From contig NZ_JAGIOH010000001.1 of NCBI RefSeq assembly GCF_017876625.1, positions 3,927,501 through 3,991,500 of the forward strand: a stretch of 64,000 bases of DNA, in the 5' to 3' direction. The notes beneath the pieces are model-generated. The model was not told where the DNA came from. It saw only the letters and a list, made by a program, of their open reading frames with translations, and did not search any database. The translations under genes and the position numbers were made by a program. Of this stretch, positions 26,680-41,068 are shown in pieces. This DNA comes from Streptomyces syringium (GTDB lineage: Bacteria; Actinomycetota; Actinomycetes; Streptomycetales; Streptomycetaceae). Position 1 is the first letter of the stretch. Each line of letters begins with the position of its first letter.

Positions 26680-28574
<1,895 letters not shown>

Positions 28575-28659: not shown

Positions 28660-28929
28660 TCAGGAAGTCAGCGGCTCCCCGTGTTCGAGGTACTGCGGAT
28701 GGGACTCCCGTCGGGCAGTGATCGCACACTTGACCCGGCGTGCGAGCCTCGGGATCAGTAGCTGGTCGACCGCCTCTGTCGGGTGAAACTCGGCGGTAAG
28801 CAGCTCGTCCGCATCCAGCTTGATCACGCTGACGTCTTCCTGCTGTTGCTCGCTGCCGTCGAAGACGTGCAGCACCTTGTCTCCTTCGGCCTCGTTCGGC
28901 GCCCAGTCCACGACCAACAGATCGCTTGA
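28660..28929 (-). pseudogene. C-terminal remnant of a Nudix hydrolase gene
   Basis: About 90 codons on the minus strand read SDLLVVDWAPNEAEGDKVLH, FDGSEQQQEDVSVIKLDAD, ARRVKCAITARRE and end YLEHGEPLTS. This matches the C-terminal half of a common Streptomyces Nudix group (VDW-P, VFDGG, RLARR, YLE-G pattern). The Nudix box and N-terminal half are missing: similarity stops about 28930, right beside the operator of the opposite-strand Nudix gene. The frame stays open to 28992 with only a TTG start. It lies next to attL, so it is probably a fragment trapped by an earlier insertion or deletion. Confidence 0.6.
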
Positions 28930-28937
28930 TCGGACGT

Positions 28938-28952
28938 TACCCACTTGGGGTA
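28938..28952. promoter_or_regulatory. Palindrome TACCCACTTGGGGTA, putative operator of the Nudix gene
   Basis: A 5-5-5 inverted repeat (TACCC-ACTTG-GGGTA) 45 bp upstream of the Nudix start. The same element, TACCCACTCTGGGTA, lies at 30926-30940 upstream of the element's HTH/TPR regulator. The match at 13 of 15 positions suggests a common binding protein. Confidence 0.65.
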
Positions 28953-28997
28953 CCCCTCTGGGATGCTGGATCCAGTTGGCTAGGGAGGGCAACGCAC

Positions 28998-29531
28998 ATG
29001 CAGTGGACGACCCATGGCGAGCGTCAGATCTACACGAACAAGTGGGTGAACTTGTGCCTGGTCGATGTTGAGCAGCCGGATGGCCGACGGTGGGAGCACC
29101 ACGTTGTTCGGCTTCGTCACCTCGCCGTGGCGGCGGTAGTCAACGAACGCCGCGAGATATTGATGATGTGGCGCCACCGGTTCATCACGGATTCCTGGGC
29201 TTGGGAACTTCCCATGGGTCTGATCGAATTGGACGAGACTCCCGAAGAGGCTGCCGTTCGAGAGGTTGAGGAAGAGACGGGCTGGCGTCCTGACTCGGTG
29301 AGACCGTTGGTGTACGCGGAGCCTGCGAACGGCATCACAGACTCGCAGCACTACGTGTTCAGGGCCGACAGCGCCACCTACATAGGTCCTCCGACCGAGA
29401 AGAACGAATCCGATCGGATCGAGTGGGTGCCCCTGGACAAGGTCCGGGGCATGGTCGACCGACGCGAGATCGTCAGCAGCGGATCACTTGTGGGTGTGCT
29501 CTACGTGCTCATGGACGAAGCGATCCGCTGA
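28998..29531 (+). CDS. Nudix-domain protein, possible Pif-like transfer-immunity factor
   Basis: 177-aa protein with a complete Nudix box (GLIELDETPEEAAVREVEEETG read as G-x5-E and REVEEETG) and an N-terminal WTTHGERQIYTNKWVNLCLVD block typical of this clade. RBS AGGGAGG precedes ATG 28998. In pSAM2, Pif is a Nudix-domain protein that stops redundant transfer into cells already carrying the element; position inside an AICE makes the same role plausible. It ends exactly where the convergent HTH/TPR regulator gene ends. A shared operator suggests control by that regulator. The role is inference. Confidence 0.8.
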   Translation: MQWTTHGERQIYTNKWVNLCLVDVEQPDGRRWEHHVVRLRHLAVAAVVNERREILMMWRHRFITDSWAWELPMGLIELDETPEEAAVREVEEETGWRPDSVRPLVYAEPANGITDSQHYVFRADSATYIGPPTEKNESDRIEWVPLDKVRGMVDRREIVSSGSLVGVLYVLMDEAIR

Positions 29532-30860
29532 TCATTGAAGAGCAGCCCGGAGCCGTGTCCTGAAGGCCACAGCTTCGGGCTGTTGGCTGTAAGGGGCGAG
29601 CTGCGATTGGAAATCTCGCAGATGCCCCATGACCCTCTCGGAGCCGACGGACGAGGCTGTCTCCAGGGAAAGGGTGGCTGTGCTGCACGCTTGATCGACG
29701 TTGCCGCGTTGAAGCTGTGTGGTGGCTAACCAGAAAGCATGGAACGCGCGTCCACGCTGGTTGCGGGCATCCTCGCGCTGTAGGGCGTCCGCGATCAGAG
29801 GTTCCGCGACTTGGGCCTCGCCCAGTCGGCCGTGAGCGATCCCGGTGTCCACGATCAACTTGGGCTCATCGAAGTAGGTGACCCACGCTGGGTCCGGGTC
29901 CTCCGGAGAGATTCGCTCAAACTGACGATGGGCTTCGGCGAGCGAGGCGTGCGCGGCGAGCCTGGCTCCATGGCTACTCATGGAAGCGTGTGCGAACGCT
30001 TCGCGCATCGACAGCATGGACATCACGCGGGGCGTGGCGCCGTGCTCGCGCGCTGTGTCCTGAGCGGCGGTGGACAGTGCTACGGCGTCCGCCAGCTTGT
30101 CCTCGTAGGTGGCCTGCAAGCTCATGCACGCCAAAACGTTGGCCATGAATGGGCGATCGTTGATCGCCTTCGCCAGCTGCAAGGACTCGGCAAAGTAGGT
30201 GCGAGCCTGGCTGTACTGCCGGGCGTCGAAGTAGATCCAGCCGGTGAGCCGGGCCAGTTCGGCGGCGATCCCGAAGAGGCTGTCCCGGTACGCGCCCTCG
30301 CTGGCTTCCTTGATCAGATCTACCACGTAGCGGAGTTGGCCTACCACGGCAGGGCGGAGGACCTCGCCGCCGTGTTCGTCGTCCCTCCGCCAGTAATCCT
30401 CAATGGACGAGTGCAGCGCACGCAGCGTGGAAGGGCTTAACCGTGGTCCGGTGGCGGCGGTCAAAATGCTGTCCAGGTCCGTGCCGGGGATGGCACTCAC
30501 GGGCTGCACCGTGTGGAGGGACGACGCGGGCACGACGGCCTCCGGCTTGGCGGCAGGGGACCCGGCGGCCGGCGCCTCCCATGGTCTCCTCGCTAAGCCA
30601 AGCATGTGCCCGGGAACCCGTAGGCCGTCGGAAACCCGTTCGATGACTTGCATGTCCCTGAGCTTGCGCTTTTTGGAGATCACTTCCCCGACGCGGCTCG
30701 GCGTCAGTCCCGTCCGCTGGGCGATCAGGTACGGGTAGAGGCCCGCGCGCCGCACAAGGGTGAAGATTTTCGAGAAGTCGCGATCACGGCACGCTGTGAT
30801 CATCTCGGGGTCTGCCAACAACCTGGCGGGCAACTCAGGGATATGTGATGGGTTCGGCAT
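29532..30860 (-). CDS. HTH/TPR transcriptional regulator
   Basis: 442-aa regulator. Residues about 20-85 form an XRE-like helix-turn-helix (KIFTLVRRAGLYPYLIAQRT, GLTPSRVGEVISKKRKLRD, MQVIERVSDGLRVPGHMLG). Residues about 150-440 are a TPR-like solenoid (RLTGWIYFDARQYSQARTYF, AESLQLAKAINDRPFMANVL), as in RRNPP-like quorum or signal-controlled regulators. ATG at 30860. Its promoter holds a TACCCACTCTGGGTA palindrome, repeated before the Nudix gene, so it likely controls itself, the Nudix protein and the divergent ATP-binding protein. A link with Nudix proteins of this kind is common in Streptomyces. Ligand unknown. Confidence 0.85.
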   Translation of the reverse strand: MPNPSHIPELPARLLADPEMITACRDRDFSKIFTLVRRAGLYPYLIAQRTGLTPSRVGEVISKKRKLRDMQVIERVSDGLRVPGHMLGLARRPWEAPAAGSPAAKPEAVVPASSLHTVQPVSAIPGTDLDSILTAATGPRLSPSTLRALHSSIEDYWRRDDEHGGEVLRPAVVGQLRYVVDLIKEASEGAYRDSLFGIAAELARLTGWIYFDARQYSQARTYFAESLQLAKAINDRPFMANVLACMSLQATYEDKLADAVALSTAAQDTAREHGATPRVMSMLSMREAFAHASMSSHGARLAAHASLAEAHRQFERISPEDPDPAWVTYFDEPKLIVDTGIAHGRLGEAQVAEPLIADALQREDARNQRGRAFHAFWLATTQLQRGNVDQACSTATLSLETASSVGSERVMGHLRDFQSQLAPYSQQPEAVAFRTRLRAALQ

Positions 30861-30925
30861 GCACGGCGCTCCAGCTCGCGGTTGGCTTGCGCTGATCATT
30901 GCGGCGGTCCTACCTGACGTGATGC

Positions 30926-30940
30926 TACCCACTCTGGGTA
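30926..30940. promoter_or_regulatory. Palindrome TACCCACTCTGGGTA between regulator and ATPase genes
   Basis: Second copy of the element's palindrome (TACCC-ACTCT-GGGTA). It lies 65 bp upstream of the HTH/TPR start and 33 bp before the divergent ATP-binding gene, so it could serve both. Confidence 0.65.
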
Positions 30941-30973
30941 AGCCGTTGGGCCTTATGCCTTGCCACTCTGCCC

Positions 30974-31600
30974 GTGAAGCTGAGGGGCATGGAGAGAAGA
31001 CGGGAAGGTGCGAACGGGCGGGAGGGGGCGCGGCGTTGGTCTCGCCGTCCCCGTTCTGGCGGCCTGGCGCGGACTGAGCTGCGTAGGGCGCTTCCCCCTG
31101 GAGCGACAGCATCCAGTCCGCCTGTGCAGCGTTTCCGGTCGATGACGCTCTTTGCGGAGTGGCAGGACACGGTGTGGGCTGCTCGTAATCTGGCTGGGTC
31201 CGCCCTCGAAGACTGGGGCTTGCACGCCCTGGTGGACGACGTGCGGTTAGTCGTCTCGGAGCTGGTTGGCAATGTGGTGCAGCACGCGGTTCCTGACGAT
31301 CGTTTGGCTTGTCCGGGTGCTCCTCGTCGGATCGATGTCACGCTGACGATGTGGCCGAAGTGGCTGTTCCTCGGTGTGGCTGACGAGGACTCCAGTCCGC
31401 CGACCTTCCCTCTTGGTGAGTCCTTCTCGCCTGAGCTCGCGCACGGCCTGCCGGAGGCAGTTCTTCCCGATTCGGGCCGTGGGCTGTTGATCATTCACCG
31501 GCTGGCCGACGCCCTGTGGTGGGCCCCGGAGGAAAGCGGCGGTAAGACGATCTTCTGCCGTTTCGACCTCGGCGAACGCTGCGCCGACGGTCCCGCCTAG
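30974..31600 (+). CDS. Anti-sigma-like ATP-binding protein (HATPase_c)
   Basis: About 208 aa. From residue about 60 it shows the GHKL ATPase pattern of RsbW-type kinases: N box ELVGNVVQHAV, G1 box DEDSSPP, and G2 box SGRGLLIIHRLADALW. No phospho-acceptor histidine is present, so it is an anti-sigma-like or stand-alone ATP-binding regulator. Such genes usually accompany HTH regulators in Streptomyces (the AbaA/WhiJ-type clusters). The start is uncertain: GTG 30974, ATG 30989 or a start near 31142; the first 50 residues are low-complexity and may not be translated. Confidence 0.78.
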   Translation: MKLRGMERRREGANGREGARRWSRRPRSGGLARTELRRALPPGATASSPPVQRFRSMTLFAEWQDTVWAARNLAGSALEDWGLHALVDDVRLVVSELVGNVVQHAVPDDRLACPGAPRRIDVTLTMWPKWLFLGVADEDSSPPTFPLGESFSPELAHGLPEAVLPDSGRGLLIIHRLADALWWAPEESGGKTIFCRFDLGERCADGPA

Positions 31601-31636
31601 ACACATTCGTTCGATCGACCTCGCGCCAGATGAAGG

Positions 31637-31849
31637 GTGGCAGACGTGAAATTCCGAGTGTGGTCACAGCAAGTGGAACGCGGTGACGTGGTGATCGACA
31701 GGGGTCGTGGGCGTGAGGTCAAGGCCGTGCGCCGGAACGGGCGGGGTGAGACCGTGCTTGTCTTCAAGGACGGCGGCGCCCACCAGTGCGTCGCCGCGAC
31801 GGCATGCCTCGTAGTGGATCGCGACGAGAGGCGTTCCCGTGCGCGGTAG
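31637..31849 (+). CDS. Small hypothetical protein of the element
   Basis: 70-aa basic protein (MADVKFRVWSQQVERGDVVI, DRGRGREVKAVRRNGRGETV). GTG start preceded by GAAGG. The pattern of short strands could form a small beta barrel, but no family is recognised. It sits between the ATP-binding protein and a DUF7848-like gene, overlapping the latter by 11 bp, so these three are probably one operon. Confidence 0.6.
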   Translation: MADVKFRVWSQQVERGDVVIDRGRGREVKAVRRNGRGETVLVFKDGGAHQCVAATACLVVDRDERRSRAR

Positions 31850-32087
31850 GGCGGCGCTCAGTTCCGACGCCCAGAAGGGCCGGTGGGCGCTGGAATGGGA
31901 CATGTCGGGGAGCGGGCCGATATACGAGGTTGAGTGCACGACCTGCGGGAGATCCTCGGAGGCGTCGGAGGGTAGTGCAGGGCCGGACGCGTGGGCCCTT
32001 GAGCACGCGGACCGGACCGGCCACACCGGCTACCGGAACATCCTCACGCGCTTCTCGCGGGCCTCGCGCTCGGCGGGCACCCCCTAG
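31839..32087 (+). CDS. DUF7848-like small protein
   Basis: 82-aa protein with a Cys pair in YEVECTTCGRSSEASE and the block AWALEHADRTGHTGYRNILTRF. The C-x2-C knuckle followed by W-x2-H-x6-H-x-G is the pattern of a Streptomyces family of small putative zinc-binding proteins annotated DUF7848, often found beside regulators of the type present here. GTG start within the end of the preceding gene, suggesting coupling. The function is unknown. Confidence 0.65.
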   Translation: MRGRAALSSDAQKGRWALEWDMSGSGPIYEVECTTCGRSSEASEGSAGPDAWALEHADRTGHTGYRNILTRFSRASRSAGTP

Positions 32088-32472
32088 ACCGGGTGAGGGC
32101 CGTGCCCTGGGGATAGATCAAGCGGCCCTCATCCTTCAACTCCCTCAGTGCGTAGACCGTGGCGCGGCGGGCCGTTCCTCCCGCCGTGCCGTGGGAGCGG
32201 ACGCTCATCCCGCGTGCCGCATATGAGGGGGCGGCGGGCTCCGTTCACCCCGTCGTCAGCGGTCCGGCCCTGATCCCCCGCGTGAGAGGCCGGACCGCGC
32301 ACAACATCCGCAGAAGCAAGACCGGACCACCCCCAGGCCTGGAAGCAAGAGGGGTGGTCCGGAAGGGATCGCGAGGACCCCGGTGCCGATGGTACCGGGG
32401 CTCTCGTCGTGCGTCCGTGCGATAGCCCAAGAAGATCCAGATCAGTCAAGGACTTTGAGGGGTGGCAAGTTG
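32088..32472. other. Non-coding segment with three tandem hairpins
   Basis: No convincing gene. Three inverted repeats follow one another: GCGGTCCGGCC (32259-32269) / GGCCGGACCGC (32288-32298); CCGGACCACCCC (32322-32333) / GGGGTGGTCCGG (32351-32362); CCCCGGT (32378-32384) / ACCGGGG (32394-32400). None has a clear T-run. Candidates are terminators for both flanks, a structured RNA, or a replication or transfer locus (ori or clt) of the element. Confidence 0.6.
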
Positions 32473-32787
32473 ATGTCGGGGCCTGAGCGTGAGGCGTTGG
32501 AGGGTGGCGTCGGAGGGTCGGGGGCTGGGGAGTTGGCCCCGGACACGGTGGGAGCGTGGGTGCGCGGCGTGGACTACGTGGCGGGCTGGCGTGAGGCTAC
32601 GGAAGCTGTAGTAGAACTCACGGAGGCACTGGCGGCTGCTGGGGTGGCTGAGGCCGCTGTGCGGATGCGTGCGGGGGCGCAAGAAGATGGTTCGGGCGTG
32701 GTGCGACTGGAGTTGGCTGTGTCGGCGGCACGCGAAGTGACAAAGCTGGCCCGAATGGCAGGGGTGCGCCTTGGCGGAGCGAGCTGA
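32473..32787 (+). CDS. Small hypothetical protein of the element
   Basis: 104-aa acidic, alanine-rich, largely helical protein (REATEAVVELTEALAAAGVA, LELAVSAAREVTKLARMAGV). ATG at 32473 preceded by GAGGGGTGG; TTG at 32470 is an alternative. It resembles no family I can name. It lies between the hairpin region and the pentapeptide-repeat gene in the same direction. Confidence 0.55.
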   Translation: MSGPEREALEGGVGGSGAGELAPDTVGAWVRGVDYVAGWREATEAVVELTEALAAAGVAEAAVRMRAGAQEDGSGVVRLELAVSAAREVTKLARMAGVRLGGAS

Positions 32788-32846
32788 AACTTCGTTCTCG
32801 ACCTCGATTAGCTGACTGGCGGCGGGTAGATGCGGTGTGATGAGCC

Positions 32847-34142
32847 ATGCGCCCGCATCAGGTGGTCAGACGATTCCTCGTAGTTCTTGGGTGCTGTGGA
32901 GGCGTATGCGTAACGGCCGGAGCGGTACTGCTGGTTTGGCGAGGGCCATGGTGGCTGGATGGCCAGTATCTGAGTACCGAGCACCTACGCTCGGGCTCGG
33001 CCGCTCTGGTCACGGGGTTCCGCACCACTGTGGTGCAGCTACTCGCGGTCCTCGGAGCCGGCATTGCCCTGATCTTCACCGCGTTCAACTACCGGCTGAC
33101 CCGGCGCGGACAGGTAACTGATCGTTTCATCAAGGCCCTGGAACGCCTCGATTCCGAAGAACTCTACGTCCGGCTCGGCGGCGTACTAGCTTTGGAACAG
33201 ATCGTCCAGGACGCCCCCGACCAGGCCACCCATGCGGCACAAGTTTTGAGCGCCTTCCTCCGGCGCCGCGCTCCTGGACAGACGCCGACGGCACCAGCTT
33301 CAGCCCGACGGGACCGCATCGCCGCTGCCCGCCGATCAGCCCTACGCGGAACTGAGCCACCCCCAAGGTTGCCTAGCCCTTCACCGAGCAGCCCCGAAGC
33401 CGACGTGCAACACGCGCTGACCGCACTCACTCACCCCTCGATCCGCAAAAACGTCGCCCCAGAGCAAGAGCTCGTCCTCGACGAACTCAACCTTGCCGGC
33501 GTCAAGCTCACCGGGGCGAACCTTTCCTACATCTGGCTCAACAAGGCGAACCTCTCCAATGCCTGGCTCAGCAGGGCGAACCTCAGCGGCGCTTGGCTCA
33601 GCAAGACGATCCTCACCGGCGCCTGGCTCGTTCATACAGACCTCACCCACGCCAGGCTCGACGGAGCGAACCTTAGTGGGGCTCGCCTAACCGATGCGAC
33701 CCTCACGGGCGTCATTCTCGACGGGGCGAACCTGACTGGGGCTTGGCTTGAGGAGGCGGACCTCACGGCAGCCTGCCTCAGGAAGGCCGACCTCACGGCG
33801 GCCCACCTAGAGGATGCGACCCTCATCCGGACCCGCCTTGAGAAGGCCGACCTCACAGCGGCCCACCTAGAGGAGGCAAACCTCACCCAGGCCCACCTCG
33901 ACGAAGCGAACCTAACCCGGGCTCGGCTCGACTCAGCTGATTTCAACGGGGCTGATCTCACTGCGGCTCGGCTTGACGGGGCCTATCTCGGCGGAGCGGA
34001 CTTGAGTAACGCCCTGGGATTAACACCTACGCAGGTATGGAAAGCCGTCATCACATCGTCCACCCGACTGCCAGATGTGATGGCGGGCCACCCGCTTATC
34101 ACCGCCCGCGTGCGAGAGATCGAGCATAGGTTCGATCTCTAA
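32847..34142 (+). CDS. Membrane-anchored pentapeptide-repeat protein
   Basis: 431-aa protein. Two membrane helices lie at about residues 9-31 (FLVVLGCCGGVCVTAGAVLLV) and 60-82 (VVQLLAVLGAGIALIFTAF). A cytoplasmic stretch with RFIKALERLDSEELYVRLGG, VLALEQI follows, a motif shared by many actinomycete pentapeptide proteins. Residues about 210-390 hold some 18 pairs of A(D/N)LxxAxL units forming a right-handed beta-helix. The end GLTPTQVWKAVI is family-like. Presence in a conjugative element suggests a host-interaction or exclusion role, but there is no direct evidence. Confidence 0.85.
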   Translation: MRPHQVVRRFLVVLGCCGGVCVTAGAVLLVWRGPWWLDGQYLSTEHLRSGSAALVTGFRTTVVQLLAVLGAGIALIFTAFNYRLTRRGQVTDRFIKALERLDSEELYVRLGGVLALEQIVQDAPDQATHAAQVLSAFLRRRAPGQTPTAPASARRDRIAAARRSALRGTEPPPRLPSPSPSSPEADVQHALTALTHPSIRKNVAPEQELVLDELNLAGVKLTGANLSYIWLNKANLSNAWLSRANLSGAWLSKTILTGAWLVHTDLTHARLDGANLSGARLTDATLTGVILDGANLTGAWLEEADLTAACLRKADLTAAHLEDATLIRTRLEKADLTAAHLEEANLTQAHLDEANLTRARLDSADFNGADLTAARLDGAYLGGADLSNALGLTPTQVWKAVITSSTRLPDVMAGHPLITARVREIEHRFDL

Positions 34143-34669: not shown

Positions 34670-35449
34670 TCAGGCGCGGGTGCGGCGTGCGGTGGGGGGC
34701 TTCTCGGCGGTGATGCGGTAGGCGAGCTGGGCGCGTTCGGCGCTGATGCGCAGTTCTTCGAGGATCAGGGGCTGGTCGTTGGTGCCGTGGGTGATGCGGG
34801 CGGTGTGGAGGACGGGGGTGGCGTCGGGGATCTGCAAGGCGCCACGTTCGGCAGGGAGCGGCATGCGGGCTTGTACCGTCTCGGCCCACCACAGCTTGTG
34901 CCCGGTCTTGCTGAGCAGCTCGTAGATCGCTGTGGGTTCGGTGTCCGGGGCCTGGGCGAGTTCGGTGTCCTCGGCGGTGGCGAAGGGGATGAGCGTGCGG
35001 TGCAGGGCCCTGGTGCCGGTCGCCGGATCCGTGAGCAGTCGTTCGCAGCCGAAGAGCGCTTCCCCCTCGCCCAGTCCCAGCGGCGGGCCGGTGATCGCGG
35101 TTGTCTCGGTGCGGTAGATCTTCGGTTCGCCGGGCTGTTCCCAGGCGATGCCGTCGTGGGTGACGAACGGGCCTGATCCGGTGCGGGTGATGCGGCGGTC
35201 GACGGTGACCGGCGGCAGACCGGAGGTGCGGACGAAGCTGCCCTTGCCGTGCTGGACATCGATCAGCCCCTCGGCGCGAAGCGCGGCGACCGCGTTGCGC
35301 ACGGTCGGGCGGGAAACCTTGTAGCGCTCGATGAGCTGCGCCTCGGACGGCAACGGGGCTCCGGGGGCGAACTCGCCGGACAGAATCGCGTCCCGGATTG
35401 CGGCCGCGACCTGCTGGTACAGCGCTCCGGGGCGCTTGATCTCCGTCAT
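34670..35449 (-). CDS. GntR-family repressor (KorSA-like)
   Basis: 259-aa GntR/HutC protein. The winged helix lies at residues 8-72 (LYQQVAAAIRDAILSGEFAP, LIERYKVSRPTVRNAVAALR), followed by a UTRA effector domain (YRTETTAITGPPLG to ARITHGTNDQPLILEELRI). In pSAM2-type elements such proteins (KorSA, KorA) repress transfer genes until conjugation. It is divergent from the transfer operon, and the spacer holds ACTCGT half-sites and an ACTCGT-AAGG-ACGAGT palindrome. ATG at 35449. Confidence 0.88.
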   Translation of the reverse strand: MTEIKRPGALYQQVAAAIRDAILSGEFAPGAPLPSEAQLIERYKVSRPTVRNAVAALRAEGLIDVQHGKGSFVRTSGLPPVTVDRRITRTGSGPFVTHDGIAWEQPGEPKIYRTETTAITGPPLGLGEGEALFGCERLLTDPATGTRALHRTLIPFATAEDTELAQAPDTEPTAIYELLSKTGHKLWWAETVQARMPLPAERGALQIPDATPVLHTARITHGTNDQPLILEELRISAERAQLAYRITAEKPPTARRTRA

Positions 35450-35492
35450 GCCTGGGTCCTTCGCTTCGGCGGTGGTCGGCGGTGACCATGTC

Positions 35493-35574
35493 ACTCGTCG
35501 CTCATAACTCGTCAGCATAAGCACTTGCGCTCCAGCCCGACAGGGCCTCATAGTCTCAACTCGTAAGGACGAGT
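35493..35574. promoter_or_regulatory. ACTCGT operator array before the transfer operon
   Basis: ACTCGT occurs at 35493-35498, 35507-35512 and 35559-35564, the last paired with ACGAGT at 35569-35574 as a 6-4-6 palindrome. Arrangement between a GntR repressor and the transfer genes strongly suggests repressor sites. Confidence 0.6.
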
Positions 35575-35624
35575 GACGTCAGCCGGGTGGTTTGGCGTCT
35601 GAGGCCAAGGGAGGCCCACACCCC

Positions 35625-35972
35625 ATGCAGTCCATCCCTGTGGACACAACCCGGCTCGGCGTACTGCGGTGCGCTGTCGCGCCGGAACCGAAGATGTCTG
35701 GCTTTGAGACGAAGGAGGTGAAGACGGACCGGGACGGCAACACGATCTACACCGTTGCCGTGATGGTCCGGCAGGACGGTCGGCGGGTCTCGGTCATCGA
35801 GATCTCGGTGACCGGCGAACCGAAAGGCGTCGTGGAGGGCGCTGAGGTCCGGGTGACGGGCCTGGAGGCGTTCTCCTGGGCCATGGGCGACCGGCACGGA
35901 ATCAGCTTCCGCGCCGCCGCCATCACCCCCGCACCGGCCGCTGCTCCGGCGGGCAAGGCGGGTGGTGCGTGA
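35625..35972 (+). CDS. SCO3933-family regulatory protein
   Basis: 115-aa protein (PVDTTRLGVLRCAVAPEPKM, VSVIEISVTGEPKGVVEGAE, VTGLEAFSWAMGDRHGISFR). The pattern resembles the family named after S. coelicolor SCO3933, found in many actinomycete ICEs directly before the FtsK-like gene. It looks like a single-strand-binding-like small beta protein; its role is not known. RBS AAGGGAGG and ATG at 35625 are clear. The stop overlaps the next start by 1 bp. Confidence 0.8.
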   Translation: MQSIPVDTTRLGVLRCAVAPEPKMSGFETKEVKTDRDGNTIYTVAVMVRQDGRRVSVIEISVTGEPKGVVEGAEVRVTGLEAFSWAMGDRHGISFRAAAITPAPAAAPAGKAGGA

Positions 35973-37276
35973 TGGGACCGATCACCTTCGCGTTCCTCCT
36001 GGCGGCCCTGGCCTGGGTCCTGGTGGCCGGCGCCCGACTGAGGGATCAGAACCCGGTGTGGTTCTGGTACCTGACCGGCTACCCGGTCGTGGCCGTCCGG
36101 GTGCTGACCACGTGGCGGAAGGTCGCGCACCTGCATGACCTGTCGGTCTCGCGCCGTCCGGCACGCGGCCTCGTCGGGGACCTGGTGGTGAAAGGGCAAG
36201 CACTGCGGCCCATCGCACCCCGCATTTCCTTCCCCAGGGCGACGCGTACGGGGTTAACCCTGGTCGTGCGCCTGCACCCCGGCCAGACACCCGCCCCCTT
36301 CATCCAGGCCGCCGACGCCCTGTCCCACGCCTGGAGGGTCCACGCGGTGCGGGTGACCTCTCCGCATCGCGGCCTGGTCCGCCTGACGGCCACTGTCACG
36401 GACCCGTTGGAGCGGCCCGGGATCGCGGTAGCGCCGGTGGTGCTGCTGTCGGCTGTGGTCGGGATCCTGGAGAGCGGCGGGGCGTGGGTGATGAACCTTC
36501 GCCACGTGCCCCACTGGCTGATCGTCGGCGCCACCCGGTCCGGGAAGTCCGCGCTGCTCGCCCGGCTGGTGAAAGAACTCGCCCGGCAACCGGTGGCGCT
36601 GGTCGGGATCGACTGCAAGGGCGGCATGGAGCTGAACTTGTTCGCCCGGCGCTTGTCCGCGCTGGCGACCACCCGCCCCGAAGCCGTCGCCACCCTCGGC
36701 GCCCTGGTCGCCGACATGCAGGACCGCATGCGCACCTGCCGCGACGCCGGAGCCCGGTCGATCTGGGAACTGCCGGAGAAGCTCCGCCCGGTCCCGGTCG
36801 TGGTGATCGTCGACGAACTAGCAGAGCTCTACCTCACGGACGGCACCCGGGCGGCAAAGGCGGAGGCCGAGCAGTGCTCCACGTTCCTCCTGCGCCTCGC
36901 GCAGCTCGGCGGCGCCCTGGGCCTCCACCTGGTCATCGCCGGACAGCGCGTCGGCTCCGACCTCGGTCCCGGTGTCACCGCCCTGCGGGCGCAGCTCGGC
37001 GGCCGGATCTGCCACCGGGTGCATGACTCCGGCACAGCGGAAATGGCGCTCGGTGATCTCAACAAGGACGCCGTGGCGGTGGCCCTGTCGATCACGGAGG
37101 CGGAGAAGGGTGTCGCTGTCTGCACCGGGCCGGACGGTGGCTGGGTGCGGGCGCGTTCGCATCTGACGTTCACCACGGAGGCCCGGGACGCTGCCGCCAG
37201 GCATGAGCACCTGCCCCCCGAACTCCCCGGCGTTACCCGCGCCCTGGAGACCCTCACCAAGGAGGCAGGCGCATGA
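35972..37276 (+). CDS. FtsK/SpoIIIE-type DNA translocase (TraB/TraSA-like)
   Basis: 434-aa hexameric motor that moves double-stranded DNA between mycelia in Streptomyces conjugation. Two N-terminal membrane helices (ITFAFLLAALAWVLVAGA and WFWYLTGYPVVAVRVL) anchor it. Walker A is GATRSGKSAL (about residues 185-194), Walker B is VVVIVDELAEL (about residue 276). The C-terminus (LPPELPGVTRAL) may contact DNA. GTG 35969 is an alternative start. This protein alone suffices for transfer in related plasmids. Confidence 0.93.
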   Translation: MGPITFAFLLAALAWVLVAGARLRDQNPVWFWYLTGYPVVAVRVLTTWRKVAHLHDLSVSRRPARGLVGDLVVKGQALRPIAPRISFPRATRTGLTLVVRLHPGQTPAPFIQAADALSHAWRVHAVRVTSPHRGLVRLTATVTDPLERPGIAVAPVVLLSAVVGILESGGAWVMNLRHVPHWLIVGATRSGKSALLARLVKELARQPVALVGIDCKGGMELNLFARRLSALATTRPEAVATLGALVADMQDRMRTCRDAGARSIWELPEKLRPVPVVVIVDELAELYLTDGTRAAKAEAEQCSTFLLRLAQLGGALGLHLVIAGQRVGSDLGPGVTALRAQLGGRICHRVHDSGTAEMALGDLNKDAVAVALSITEAEKGVAVCTGPDGGWVRARSHLTFTTEARDAAARHEHLPPELPGVTRALETLTKEAGA

Positions 37277-37484: not shown

Positions 37485-37601
37485 ATGCCCATGCGCCGTG
37501 TGCGCTGCCCGATCTGCAAGGGCGAACGACGCACCAGGAAGACCCGTTCCGGCCGCTGGCACCGCTGCCGCTGCTGCCGGGGCACCGGCACCATCCGCTA
37601 A
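37485..37601 (+). CDS. Tiny zinc-knuckle transfer-operon protein
   Basis: 38-aa basic protein MPMRRVRCPICKGERRTRKT followed by RSGRWHRCRCCRGTGTIR. Cysteines as C-x2-C and C-x1-C-C, with CKG and CRGTG repeats, suggest a single zinc-binding DnaJ-like knuckle. ATG at 37485 follows CCGGAGG. Similar tiny cysteine proteins sit at this spot in other AICEs. Too short to identify otherwise. Confidence 0.7.
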   Translation: MPMRRVRCPICKGERRTRKTRSGRWHRCRCCRGTGTIR

Positions 37602-37633
37602 CCCCACCCCCGACCGCACAAGGAGTGAGCGCC

Positions 37634-39147
37634 ATGGACGACACCGGCCCACCAACCACCACCTGTGCCGCTTCGGCGGCCCACCCCGGGAGGTCCCCAC
37701 CATCCCCACCAGCAACCCGGCTGACAGGCGCGCCGCCCTCGACCGCGCGGCGCGCCTGCGTCATCTCTCCGACGTCGACCAGGACGTCATCCGCCTCGCC
37801 CAGGACCCGTTGTTCCCCCGCTTCCTGGAACAGATCGCCGCCACCGGCGGTTGCGCCCACCCCGTCCACCTCTCCGGCTCGACCACCACGCGCGACGTCG
37901 CCACGGGGGAGGTGCTGCACCACTACGACACTCGCACCGAACCGGGTGAGCGGCTCTTCGTCCGCTGCCGCAACCGCCGAGCGTCGGTCTGCGCACCGTG
38001 CTCGCGCCTCTACGCCGGAGACACCTTCCACCTCGTCCGCGCCGGACTCACCGGCGGCAAGAGCGTCCCGGTGCAGGTGCGGGAGCGGCCCCGGCTCTTT
38101 GTCACCCTCACCGCGCCGTCCTTCGGCCCCGTCCACCGCGCCACCACCGACGGGCAACGCTGTCGCCCCCGACGCAATGCCGGGACCTGCGAGCACAACC
38201 GCCCGGTGAGCTGCGGAGCCGTCCACGACGTCACCGAATCGGTCGTCGGCCAGCCGCTGTGTCCGGGGTGCTACGACTACCCGGCGCACGTCCTGTGGCA
38301 CGCCCACGCCGGACAACTGTGGGACCGCTTCACCCGCGCCACCCGCCGTACCCTGGCCTCGGCCGTCGGCCTGGCGCAGGCCCGGTTCCGCGACCATGCC
38401 CGGCTCTCCTTCGCTAAGGTCGCGGAGTACCAGAAGCGCGCCGCCGTCCACGTCCACGCCGTTGTACGCCTCGACGGCCCCGACGGACCCCACACCCCGC
38501 CCCCGGCCTGGGCAACCCCCGAACTGCTGACCAGCGCGGTTCACACGGCGGCACGGTCGGTCCTCGTGCGCAGCCCCTACAGCCCGTCCATCGGGGAACT
38601 CGAACTCCGCTGGGGCACCCAGCTCGACGCCCGGCCCCTGCGGGCCTTCGGCGACACCGACGGCCTGGCCGACGACGCCGTCGCCGCCTACGTCGCGAAG
38701 TACGTCACCAAAGGCGCCACCGACACAGCAGCCGGCACCGACTACCGGCTCCTGACCCGGGACGACATAGACGCGGCAGCGGTGTCCCCGCATATCCGGG
38801 CCCTCATGCGCACCTGCTGGCACCTCGGCGGCCTACCCGAGTACGCCCCCCTCCGGCTACGAGCCTGGGCCCACACCCTCGGATACCGAGGCCACATCCT
38901 CACCAAATCCCGCGCCTACTCGACCTCCTACACCGCACTACGCACCCAACGTGCTGAGCATCAACGCTCCACGGAGACGCGCGTACCTGACGGCCCCGAA
39001 GTGGCCACCGATTCCCAGTGGCGTTACGTCGGCTCCGGCCACACCCCCGGCGCGACCCTCATAGCTGCCGGAATCGCCGACGACCTCGTCCTCAACCGCG
39101 AGCTTGCGCGTGAAGACCTGAGGGCGCCTGGTGGTGAGGTGGAGTGA
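37634..39147 (+). CDS. RepSA-type replication initiator with apparent N-terminal frameshift
   Basis: About 500-aa initiator for rolling-circle-like replication of the excised element. Cysteine pairs (CRNRRASVCAPCS, CEHNRPVSC, PLCPGC) form putative zinc sites. An HUH-like motif is VHVHAVVRLDG, and AYVAKYVTKGATD carries the candidate catalytic tyrosine. The best start, ATG 37634 with AAGGAGTG at ideal spacing, lies in the wrong frame: one base seems missing between about 37665 and 37695. No ATG, GTG or TTG occurs in the main frame between 37498 and the conserved region. It is a frameshift mutation, a sequence error, or programmed shifting. Confidence 0.75.
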
Positions 39148-39323
39148 GCCATGCCAGCACTGGAAGGTTAAAAACAGAGCGGGAGAAGGACGAGGAAGCG
39201 GCGGCACGGGCATGGATTGAGCGGCACGTGCGCGAATCCCCGCCCTTCTCGGAAGATCAATTACGCAGCATGGGGGAGATTTTGGGGCTGAGGCTCACTC
39301 GGAGGAGCGCCACACCGGCTTGA
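39144..39323 (+). CDS. 59-aa protein between rep and int, candidate excision factor
   Basis: GTG at 39144 overlaps the rep stop by 4 bp (GTGA), showing coupling. The product (MSHASTGRLKTEREKDEEAA, then ARAWIERHVRESPPFSEDQL, RSMGEILGLRLTRRSATPA) is strongly charged with a pattern ESPPFSEDQLRSMGEIL that recurs in small proteins near integrases of actinobacterial elements. The 3' end overlaps the convergent integrase gene by 29 bp. Serine integrases need a directionality factor to excise; this is the only small gene adjacent. That function is inference. Confidence 0.6.
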   Translation: MSHASTGRLKTEREKDEEAAARAWIERHVRESPPFSEDQLRSMGEILGLRLTRRSATPA

Positions 39324-40857
39324 GCAGGTCAAGGTCAAAGGCCTTGTTTCCCTTGCCTCCAGGCATGGCAGTGACGGCGTGCAGCGCCTTCTTGATCAAC
39401 TCTCGCTTCTGTGTGAGGGTGCGGGACTTCCACGACGTGACGATGTCGGCCTCTGCGGCTTCGGCTGCTGCCTTCATCGCCAAGTGCTCTGCCTGCTCGG
39501 CGCGCAGCTTCTTGACCCGGGCTTCGAGCGCCGGGAGGTTGCGGAAGAACGTCTCGTCATCAACGTCGGGGTCGCCGTTCTGCCAGCGGTTCTCAAGCTG
39601 CTTGCGGCTCTGAATCGCCCGCTCAAGATCCTCGGCCTTGCCCCAGTCGGGGATGTCCCGGTTGCTGCTGGCTGCTTGAGCTTCAAGTTTGGCGATAACT
39701 AGATCCTCGACGTGCTTGTCGGTCTTGTCGCCGCGCTTGTAGGTCTTGTTGCATCCGCCGTCTACGGTCTTCTTGCACATGTAGGCGTGCTCGTACTTGA
39801 GCCAGGTGTTCGCCTTAATGCCGATCATCTTGTTGTTGCAGACGCTGCCATCCTCAAGGGTGTTGCCGCACCGCAAGATCCCCGTGAGCAGGTACTTGTG
39901 TACGACTCCCCCGAGAGGGATCCCGGCACCGTGCCCGCGATCGTGGATCGCCGCTGTGACGGCGTACCACTCCTTGGGCGTGATGATCGACGCCCACTCG
40001 CCCACGATCGGTTGGTCGTCGCCGTCGCGCACCAGCTCTCCCTTGACCTCTCGGTAGCCGCACAGGCGGGCGTTCAAGAGCACTTGCTTGACGGTCTGGT
40101 ACTGGAAGGGGTTGCCACGGCTCGTGATGAAGCCGATTTCCTTCCACTGCTTGGTGATCTCCGAAACGGATGCCCCGGCGATTACGTCGCGCACGGCTTG
40201 CCGGATGGCCGCTGCTTCGGCGGGGCGGAGAGTGACCTTGTCGTCATCCCAGCCGAAGGGGCGCCATGCGGCTGTGGACTGGCCACGGATCGCCCGGTTG
40301 CGGTGGCTGTTGCGGGCCCGACGCTGCTTCTTCCTGGTCTCGGCTAGGGACATGGCCACGCCTACAAGGCCCTTGATCTCGAACCCCTCGGCGTAGAGAT
40401 CTTGCATGCCGTTCGAGTCGTGATAGACGCGATCTTCATGGGCGGTGAACGCGCTTAGGTAGCGTTCCCAGTCCCCGGGCCGCCGGTAGAGGCGGTCATC
40501 GTTGACGGCCATCACGCCATGAATGGGGTAACCCTCGGGCGTCTGCCCAGTCGTGAGGTCGTTGATCATCTGCTCGAAGTCGTCTCGGATCACCTCCTCC
40601 TTGCTGGCGCTCTTGTCGTTGTCGGTGTAGCGGTAGACGATCAGCCACCCGAACTTTCGGGAGTTGTCGGTCATCTCGCGGTGCTGATCTTCGATGCCGT
40701 GGGCGTCCTTGGCCCGCCCATCGAAGGAGATGCGGGCGTAGCACACCACGCATTTGAGGGACGGATCTGCGGCCAGCATGGCCCGCACTTCCTCGACGGA
40801 CGGTAGGCCTTCAGGCGTGCCCCGAAGCTTGCTGATGACCTCTTCGCGCTTGCCCAC
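39295..40857 (-). CDS. int: Large serine recombinase (integrase)
   Basis: 520-aa serine integrase that joins attP and attB. The resolvase-like catalytic domain occupies residues about 36-185 with nucleophile Ser44 (CYARISFDGR) and arginines in NDDRLYRRPGDWERY. The recombinase domain follows (RPFGWDDDKVTLRPAEAAAI), then a zinc ribbon (CGNTLEDGSVCNNK, CKKTVDGGCNKTY) and a coiled coil (LPALEARVKKLRAEQAEHLA). The start lies about 75 bp from attR, the usual arrangement. It is the most likely agent of insertion into thiC. ATG at 40857 has AGGAGGAC upstream. Confidence 0.95.
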   Translation of the reverse strand: MGKREEVISKLRGTPEGLPSVEEVRAMLAADPSLKCVVCYARISFDGRAKDAHGIEDQHREMTDNSRKFGWLIVYRYTDNDKSASKEEVIRDDFEQMINDLTTGQTPEGYPIHGVMAVNDDRLYRRPGDWERYLSAFTAHEDRVYHDSNGMQDLYAEGFEIKGLVGVAMSLAETRKKQRRARNSHRNRAIRGQSTAAWRPFGWDDDKVTLRPAEAAAIRQAVRDVIAGASVSEITKQWKEIGFITSRGNPFQYQTVKQVLLNARLCGYREVKGELVRDGDDQPIVGEWASIITPKEWYAVTAAIHDRGHGAGIPLGGVVHKYLLTGILRCGNTLEDGSVCNNKMIGIKANTWLKYEHAYMCKKTVDGGCNKTYKRGDKTDKHVEDLVIAKLEAQAASSNRDIPDWGKAEDLERAIQSRKQLENRWQNGDPDVDDETFFRNLPALEARVKKLRAEQAEHLAMKAAAEAAEADIVTSWKSRTLTQKRELIKKALHAVTAMPGGKGNKAFDLDLLKPVWRSSE

Positions 40858-40923: not shown

Positions 40924-40944
40924 GAAGTTCTGTTCGATGAAGAT
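40924..40944 (+). other. attR, right attachment site
   Basis: GAAGTTCTGTTCGATGAAGAT. It matches attL except for T at 40933 (element) and G at 40942 (chromosome), which restrict the crossover to TCGATGAA at 40934-40941. The native thiC sequence resumes to its right. Confidence 0.85.
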
Positions 40945-41068
40945 CTCGCAGGACATCCGGCGTGAGCACGGCGGGGATCTGGCCGTCGACCCGGAGGCGG
41001 GCATGGCGGAGAAGTCCAAGGAGTTCGCCGCGAGTGGCAACCGGGTCTATCTGCCGCTGGCCGACTGA
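40937..41068 (+). pseudogene. thiC: Stranded native 3' end of thiC
   Basis: 43 codons starting with the Met of the ThiC CSM-KIS sequence: [20 protein letters not shown], then [20 protein letters not shown] and LAD. The last 18 residues equal those of the element-supplied tail, but the DNA differs at several synonymous positions over the final 57 bases. It is cut off from the rest of thiC by the element. No good RBS precedes the ATG, so it is probably untranslated. Confidence 0.93.

Follow-up and report, generated by a model that had tools for sequence, protein, structure and literature searches.

It is difficult to recognise the recombination directionality factors (RDFs) of serine integrases, and a 2017 paper refers to seven characterised serine integrase–RDF pairs (PMC5311408). 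A validated case from a Streptomyces phage is gp52 of phiJoe, a 62-amino acid RDF whose gene is located beside that of the serine integrase and whose homologues follow the integrase (PMC5311408). In the mycobacterial prophage-like element phiRv1, the large serine integrase has a small RDF, Xis (Rv1584c), whose gene is located within one or two open reading frames (ORFs) of the integrase gene (PMC5311408). A different arrangement is found in elements with a RepSA-type replication initiator and a tyrosine integrase. The rep, xis, and int genes of pSAM2 belong to one operon that is controlled by pra (according to the title of a reference in PMC8584621), and the Xis proteins of this type are helix-turn-helix proteins that serve tyrosine integrases.

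Two described elements are close to the one analyzed here. Faln2929 of Frankia is, by its description, of the same class and gene order, with a serine integrase gene that is convergent with tra and rep (PMC3218068). Ghinet et al. detected excision of Faln2929, could identify no RDF and suggested that the element does not need one (PMC3218068); the available text of that paper makes no mention of an ORF in the slot that follows rep. The SCO3937 element of Streptomyces coelicolor, described as a remnant, has the same backbone of a GntR regulator (SCO3932), a Pra-like protein (SCO3933), Tra, RepSA, and a serine integrase (PMC8584621). The accessible parts of the literature on serine-integrase elements of this class and on RDF prediction name no RDF for such elements.

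The window analyzed in this study is a stretch of 64,000 nucleotides of Streptomyces syringium DNA (contig NZ_JAGIOH010000001.1). A preliminary description of the window proposed that a small ORF between rep and the integrase gene is a candidate RDF. The proposal is supported by the reality of the gene, its location in the slot that xis occupies in related elements, its co-variation with the integrase and the presence of a family of similar proteins beside serine integrases. Since the ORF is a real gene whose position is that of the excision gene in related elements and whose evolution follows that of the integrase, it is probably the missing switch by which elements of this class leave the chromosome, and it is likely on this comparative evidence that it encodes the RDF of the element's serine integrase. 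The loci compared were chosen through their rep match or for their similarity.

The Host Element and the 59-Amino Acid ORF

The element is integrated in a gene that we take to be thiC from a reading of its protein. The features of the element and its borders are as follows (window coordinates):

26802–28574, forward strand: thiC, with the final codons supplied by the element
28425–28435, forward strand: attL core, TCGATGAAAAT
34670–35551, reverse strand: GntR/HutC-type regulator, KorSA-like by analogy with SCO3932
35592–35972, forward strand: SCO3933-family (Pra-like) regulatory protein
35969–37276, forward strand: FtsK/SpoIIIE-type transfer protein (Tra)
37498–39147, forward strand: RepSA-type replication initiator, given as the longest ORF (Pfam PF20199, E = 7e-156)
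39130–39143, forward strand: Shine-Dalgarno-like stretch in the 3' end of rep, ahead of the GTG (duplex dG −10.8)
39144–39323, forward strand: 59-amino acid ORF, candidate RDF, GTG start sharing GTGA with the rep stop
39295–40857, reverse strand: large serine integrase, convergent with rep and the 59-amino acid ORF (PF00239, PF07508, zinc ribbon)
40934–40944, forward strand: attR core, TCGATGAAGAT
40937–41068, forward strand: displaced 3' end of the host thiC

The backbone is organized in the order GntR, SCO3933-family regulator, FtsK-type Tra, two tiny ORFs, RepSA, 59-amino acid ORF, and integrase. With Rep, an FtsK-type Tra, and an integrase between att sites, the element is an actinomycete integrative and conjugative element (AICE). 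The GntR regulator has its own DNA-binding domain. A 38-amino acid ORF between tra and rep (37486–37599) contains many Cys and Arg residues as well as CxxC pairs and has no match in Pfam or NCBIfam, and the other ORFs of the element, located at 28926–34142, encode NUDIX, HATPase_c_2, DUF7848, and pentapeptide-repeat proteins.

Both element ends share an att core of the form TCGATGAA[A/G]AT, at 28425 and 40934, ∼12.5 kb apart. The element brings its own recoded thiC 3' end (28425–28574) so that thiC stays open after integration, and the displaced host end is found past attR (40934–41068), beyond the integrase gene, with 85% identity over 75 nt. Among 121 genomes of the genus, the predicted empty site (three mismatches or fewer) was found in 79, with filled attR sites counted in this number.

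The preliminary description located the ORF correctly, at 39144–39323 on the forward strand with a GTG start and 59 amino acids, and its account of the junctions holds as well: the rep frame (37498–39147) ends in a TGA at 39145–39147 with the GTG one base upstream at 39144, and the last 29 nt of the ORF are antisense to the integrase gene. The translated product is small and charged, as had been stated. The conservation search that had been asked for was carried out at two levels. A protein search for orthologues in 295 genomes of the genus identified the gene in eight, the window's own among them, and a profile search in 392 genomes of the genus returned ten strong matches (E = 6e-25 or better), with the next match at only 5.5e-6. 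The profile matches together with two named Streptomyces relatives give a set of 12 elements (the thiC family, window included), and the frame is open in every one.

In all 12 elements the ORF is located between a rep match (partial in L066 and L065) and the integrase gene, and a 3' end of thiC is found beside the latter. Both copies of thiC were seen in eight of them (the window, L059–L062, and L064–L066), the other four having been fetched on one side. Besides the window, L059, L060, L062, L064, and L065 have the att pattern at both ends. In L061, L063, L067, L001, and L002 it was found at a single end, partly because only one end was fetched; the pattern search printed no match for L066.

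The Slot after rep Is That of xis in Related Elements

A RepSA search was conducted in 150 genomes of the genus and the region downstream of rep was fetched for 59 of the first 68 matches listed. The nine matches left out were the window, one thiC relative, and seven that were skipped by hand with their content unseen (one of them a fragment). Classification of the 59 loci with local profiles gave 41 with a tyrosine integrase, six with a serine integrase, and 12 with no recognised integrase, of which eight had an Xis match. A helix-turn-helix Xis is encoded directly after rep in 40 out of 41 tyrosine loci, as opposed to zero out of six serine loci (Fisher P = 6.5e-7). The xis frame displays an NTGA overlap with the rep stop in 36 of these 40 cases (15 GTGA, 14 ATGA, and 7 CTGA), so that a link between excision gene and rep looks general in this class (L108–L166). 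The CTG of the CTGA junctions was not counted as a start codon of xis: an ATG directly follows in L126 and L162, the two junctions read by eye out of the seven.

The Xis model had no match at the 12 thiC-family junctions or in the six serine loci. Each of the six serine loci (L124, L127, L132, L134, L156, and L158) contains a short candidate ORF of 43–60 amino acids after rep, picked by eye from three frames; in DNA this rich in GC, open frames occur often. Three of these ORFs (L127, L132, and L158) have the exact NTGA overlap. Selection by hand in other genera of the class provided 40 more loci, of which 29 are tyrosine loci (23 with a match to the Xis model), two are serine loci, and nine have no recognised integrase. 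Both serine loci contain an ORF that starts from the ATGA of the rep stop (134 amino acids in L229 and 102 in L231) and has a C-terminal part that resembles the other slot ORFs. In L072 a small ORF adjoins rep ∼1.8 kb away from the integrase gene. A locus of Nonomuraea gerenzanensis (L273), in which a serine integrase with 40.5% identity adjoins a truncated rep, had no slot ORF and is probably a remnant.

The comparison of the ORF with the Xis of pSAM2, made in the preliminary description, holds for the position after rep and for the coupling to it but not for the fold. The 59-amino acid protein has no match to a Pfam helix-turn-helix family and was rejected as an excisionase of the pSAM2 type.

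Co-variation with the Integrase

Three elements separate the history of the small protein from that of Rep. The rep genes of L071, L072, and L134 are 69–71% identical to that of the window, which is within the 65–75% displayed by the seven thiC-family members compared, yet their integrases are 43% or less and their small proteins 42% or less identical to those of the window. A Mantel test over 16 elements gave r = 0.97 between small protein and integrase (P = 2e-4), a value driven by the contrast of the thiC family with the rest, and r = 0.49 between small protein and Rep over 14 elements (P = 0.016). When a single thiC member was kept with six divergent elements, the correlation was 0.59 with the integrase (P = 0.009) and 0.11 with Rep (P = 0.26). 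Furthermore, similar small proteins are found in L127 and L156, whose integrases are of one type. Overall, the divergence of the small protein tracks the integrase more than Rep, and the candidate factor is encoded by the same element as the integrase and co-inherited with the integrase type.

Co-variation with the integrase and conserved adjacency would equally be explained if the product were an accessory protein that binds the integrase and only inhibits or stabilises it, with no reversal of the reaction. This explanation is unlikely: the gene occupies the slot of xis in the tyrosine relatives, and the other ORFs of the element that were tested have no match to an excisionase family. A second explanation is that the protein is a regulator or partner of Rep, involved in copy number or plasmid-stage control, and coupled to rep on that account. 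The overlap with the rep stop, the location of all close orthologues next to rep and the partial correlation with rep divergence would agree with such a function. It is nevertheless a rather improbable one, given that integrase and small protein diverge together in L071, L072, and L134 while Rep does not, and that three loci without a rep match (L069, L070, and L073) have a similar small ORF directly beside the serine integrase gene.

Start Codon and Coupling to rep

The codon at the rep stop varies among the 12 orthologues. It is CTG in seven (L001, L002, L060–L063, and L067), GTG in three (the window, L059, and L066), and ATG in two (L065, and L064 with a longer overlap), and the exact NTGA overlap is kept in ten out of 12, the exceptions being L064 and L067. 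Among the CTG loci, L001, L061, and L063 contain no in-frame ATG, GTG, or TTG upstream of a conserved tryptophan, and L002, L060, and L062 contain an in-frame ATG or GTG further in.

Pairing with the 3' end of 16S rRNA ahead of the overlap was scored in ten of the 12 orthologues (all but L064 and L067). In the window, the dG of −10.8 beats all 290 in-phase segments of the preceding rep stretch. The six scored CTG loci range from −12.6 to −15.5, stronger than every in-phase rep segment (290 per locus, 131 in L001), and pairing is weaker at the ATG and GTG starts of L065 (−7.3), L066 (−7.2), and L059 (−8.6). This pattern fits termination–reinitiation, in which a poor start codon is aided by a strong ribosome-binding site. 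Because CTG is found at the rep stop in seven out of 12 orthologues, with a strong ribosome-binding site in the six that were scored, genes of this kind may go uncalled or be assigned a wrong start under rules that accept only ATG, GTG, and TTG.

The same junctions bear on the possibility that the ORF is a C-terminal extension of Rep, produced by frameshifting at the rep stop, and not a separate protein. The frame is −1 relative to rep and the seven CTG orthologues offer no ATG, GTG, or TTG at the overlap, but no slippery heptamer was seen by eye at the junctions. The retention of the exact NTGA overlap, the strong Shine-Dalgarno pairing ahead of CTG and its weaker counterpart ahead of the ATG or GTG of L065, L066, and L059 also argue for an initiation site, and frameshifting is accordingly a very remote explanation.

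Purifying Selection on the ORF

The 12 orthologues were compared over a core of 31 codons outside the integrase overlap. The dN/dS ratio is 0.135 (pS 0.621 and pN 0.158), and the variable columns at codon positions 1, 2, and 3 number 17, 9, and 30 out of 31. The other two frames of the same core have dN/dS ratios of 1.38 and 3.84 with four and nine stops. The open frame in 12 orthologues and the low dN/dS outside the overlap place the ORF beyond chance, and it is a genuine gene under purifying selection. The notion of a chance frame in GC-rich DNA, conserved merely through its last 9–10 codons that are antisense to the integrase gene, is refuted by the 31 codons outside the overlap and retains practically no probability.

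A conserved RNA hairpin was also considered as the real function of the ORF. In eight out of 12 orthologues the core region at 39234–39287 forms a long hairpin that is stronger than in synonymous recodings (z = −1.8 to −4.2). The hairpin is absent in the window (z = +1.5), L059, L061, and L066; it cannot explain the ORF of the window and was rejected as its function. In the orthologues that carry it, the hairpin is perhaps a dual-coded terminator between the convergent genes.

An AlphaFold2 model based on the 12 sequences predicts a helix at residues 6–31, a turn at two prolines and a second helix at residues 37–47. Confidence in the model is no more than moderate (mean pLDDT 68.6 and pTM 0.35), and a Foldseek search of it against the PDB returned three matches, none with an E value below 6.

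Relatives beside Other Serine Integrases

The core of the thiC family consists of a tryptophan, a proline nine residues on and then the second helix. The W-x8-P signature is present in five out of eight ORFs that were found by their position after rep and missing from L132, L134, and L231. The shuffle probability is 8e-4, or 0.005 after L156 (which has the integrase type of L127) is dropped, and both values are optimistic because the signature was noticed partly in those same ORFs. With a profile built from the thiC family only, no ORF of another serine element was matched significantly (best E = 0.055, with a tyrosine-integrase locus ranking second), and the unity of the serine-element ORFs thus rests on position, signature, and co-variation.

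The weak matches of the profile search include six out of 23 that are located within ∼2 kb of a serine integrase gene (G269, G158, G384, G168, G035, and G167:C358); these six were selected by similarity, and for most of the others the comparison extended at most to the window's integrase within a locus of 3 kb. A further relative, in genome G642, has its own serine integrase ∼12 kb away. A search with the G642 protein identified similar proteins in 26 out of 198 genomes of another genus, which is probably Mycobacterium since one such protein matches Mycobacterium phages only (12 out of 12 records). Within the ∼3-kb loci of this family a serine integrase was found in 18 out of 29 by direct search and in 23 out of 29 with an iterated model; one of the 29 contains a tyrosine integrase. 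The thiC-family profile aligned with 19 of the G642-like proteins over 37 columns with an hhalign probability of 96.6% and E = 5e-10 (single comparison). The RDF of phiRv1 (Rv1584c) is presumably a member of this probably mycobacterial small-protein family. In size and position the family agrees with what is described for the phiRv1 Xis (PMC5311408). Unlike the phiRv1 gene, the gene for the 59-amino acid protein overlaps rep, is convergent with the integrase gene and has a CTG start in seven out of 12 orthologues.

Mycobacterium phage Larva encodes a 48-amino acid hypothetical protein, gp40 (L272:3564–3710), directly after its serine integrase gp39. It carries the same PPLT..Q core and is a further RDF candidate.

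Searches in other collections gave no convincing family. A tblastn search with the 59-amino acid protein in phages and plasmids returned no match, NCBIfam contains no family for it, and the G642 protein had no confirmed match in viral contigs and phage records, or only matches with E of 0.6 and above. In PHROGs the window protein had a single match (E = 0.39), and 14 members of a broad alignment matched two families through one member each (E = 0.055 and 0.09). UPF0154 (PF03672) was rejected at 18.7 bits with a curated cut-off of 27.1. The phiJoe gp52 family was likewise considered. The phiJoe factor resembles the 59-amino acid protein in size, in its gene being beside int and in following the integrase; unlike the gene in the window, gp52 is encoded on the other side of attP and divergent from the integrase gene. 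The hhalign probability against gp52 and its phage homologues is below 1%, and membership in this family was dropped for lack of a profile relation.

A Proposed Model for Excision Coupled to Rep Synthesis

On the reading that the ORF encodes the RDF, the following sequence of events is proposed. By itself, the integrase would insert the 12.5-kb element into the thiC site, and a switch of the GntR/Pra type would turn on the tra–rep operon. Ribosomes that terminate at the end of rep would restart at the overlapping GTG and produce the 59-amino acid protein, which would bind the convergently encoded integrase. The bound factor would allow recombination of attL with attR and block that of attP with attB, so that the direction of the reaction is reversed and excision would coincide with the production of Rep.

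A wider proposition, for which the chances stand about level, is that these proteins form one overlooked superfamily of tiny helical-hairpin RDFs across actinobacterial serine-integrase elements, the phiRv1 factor included. Such factors would occupy the xis slot, be swapped together with the integrase as a cassette and be translated by termination–reinitiation at the rep stop (with a CTG start in some lineages), tying excision to Rep synthesis codon by codon.

If the slot rule holds, the factor of any RepSA element that has a serine integrase could be recognised by its location, and the loci analyzed here would provide about ten candidate integrase–factor pairs. The published suggestion that no RDF is needed (PMC3218068) would become directly testable. 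The rule would also explain how excision is coupled to replication in elements of this kind, and the start codons at the rep stop point to a class of genes that would be missed by the start-codon rules of gene callers.
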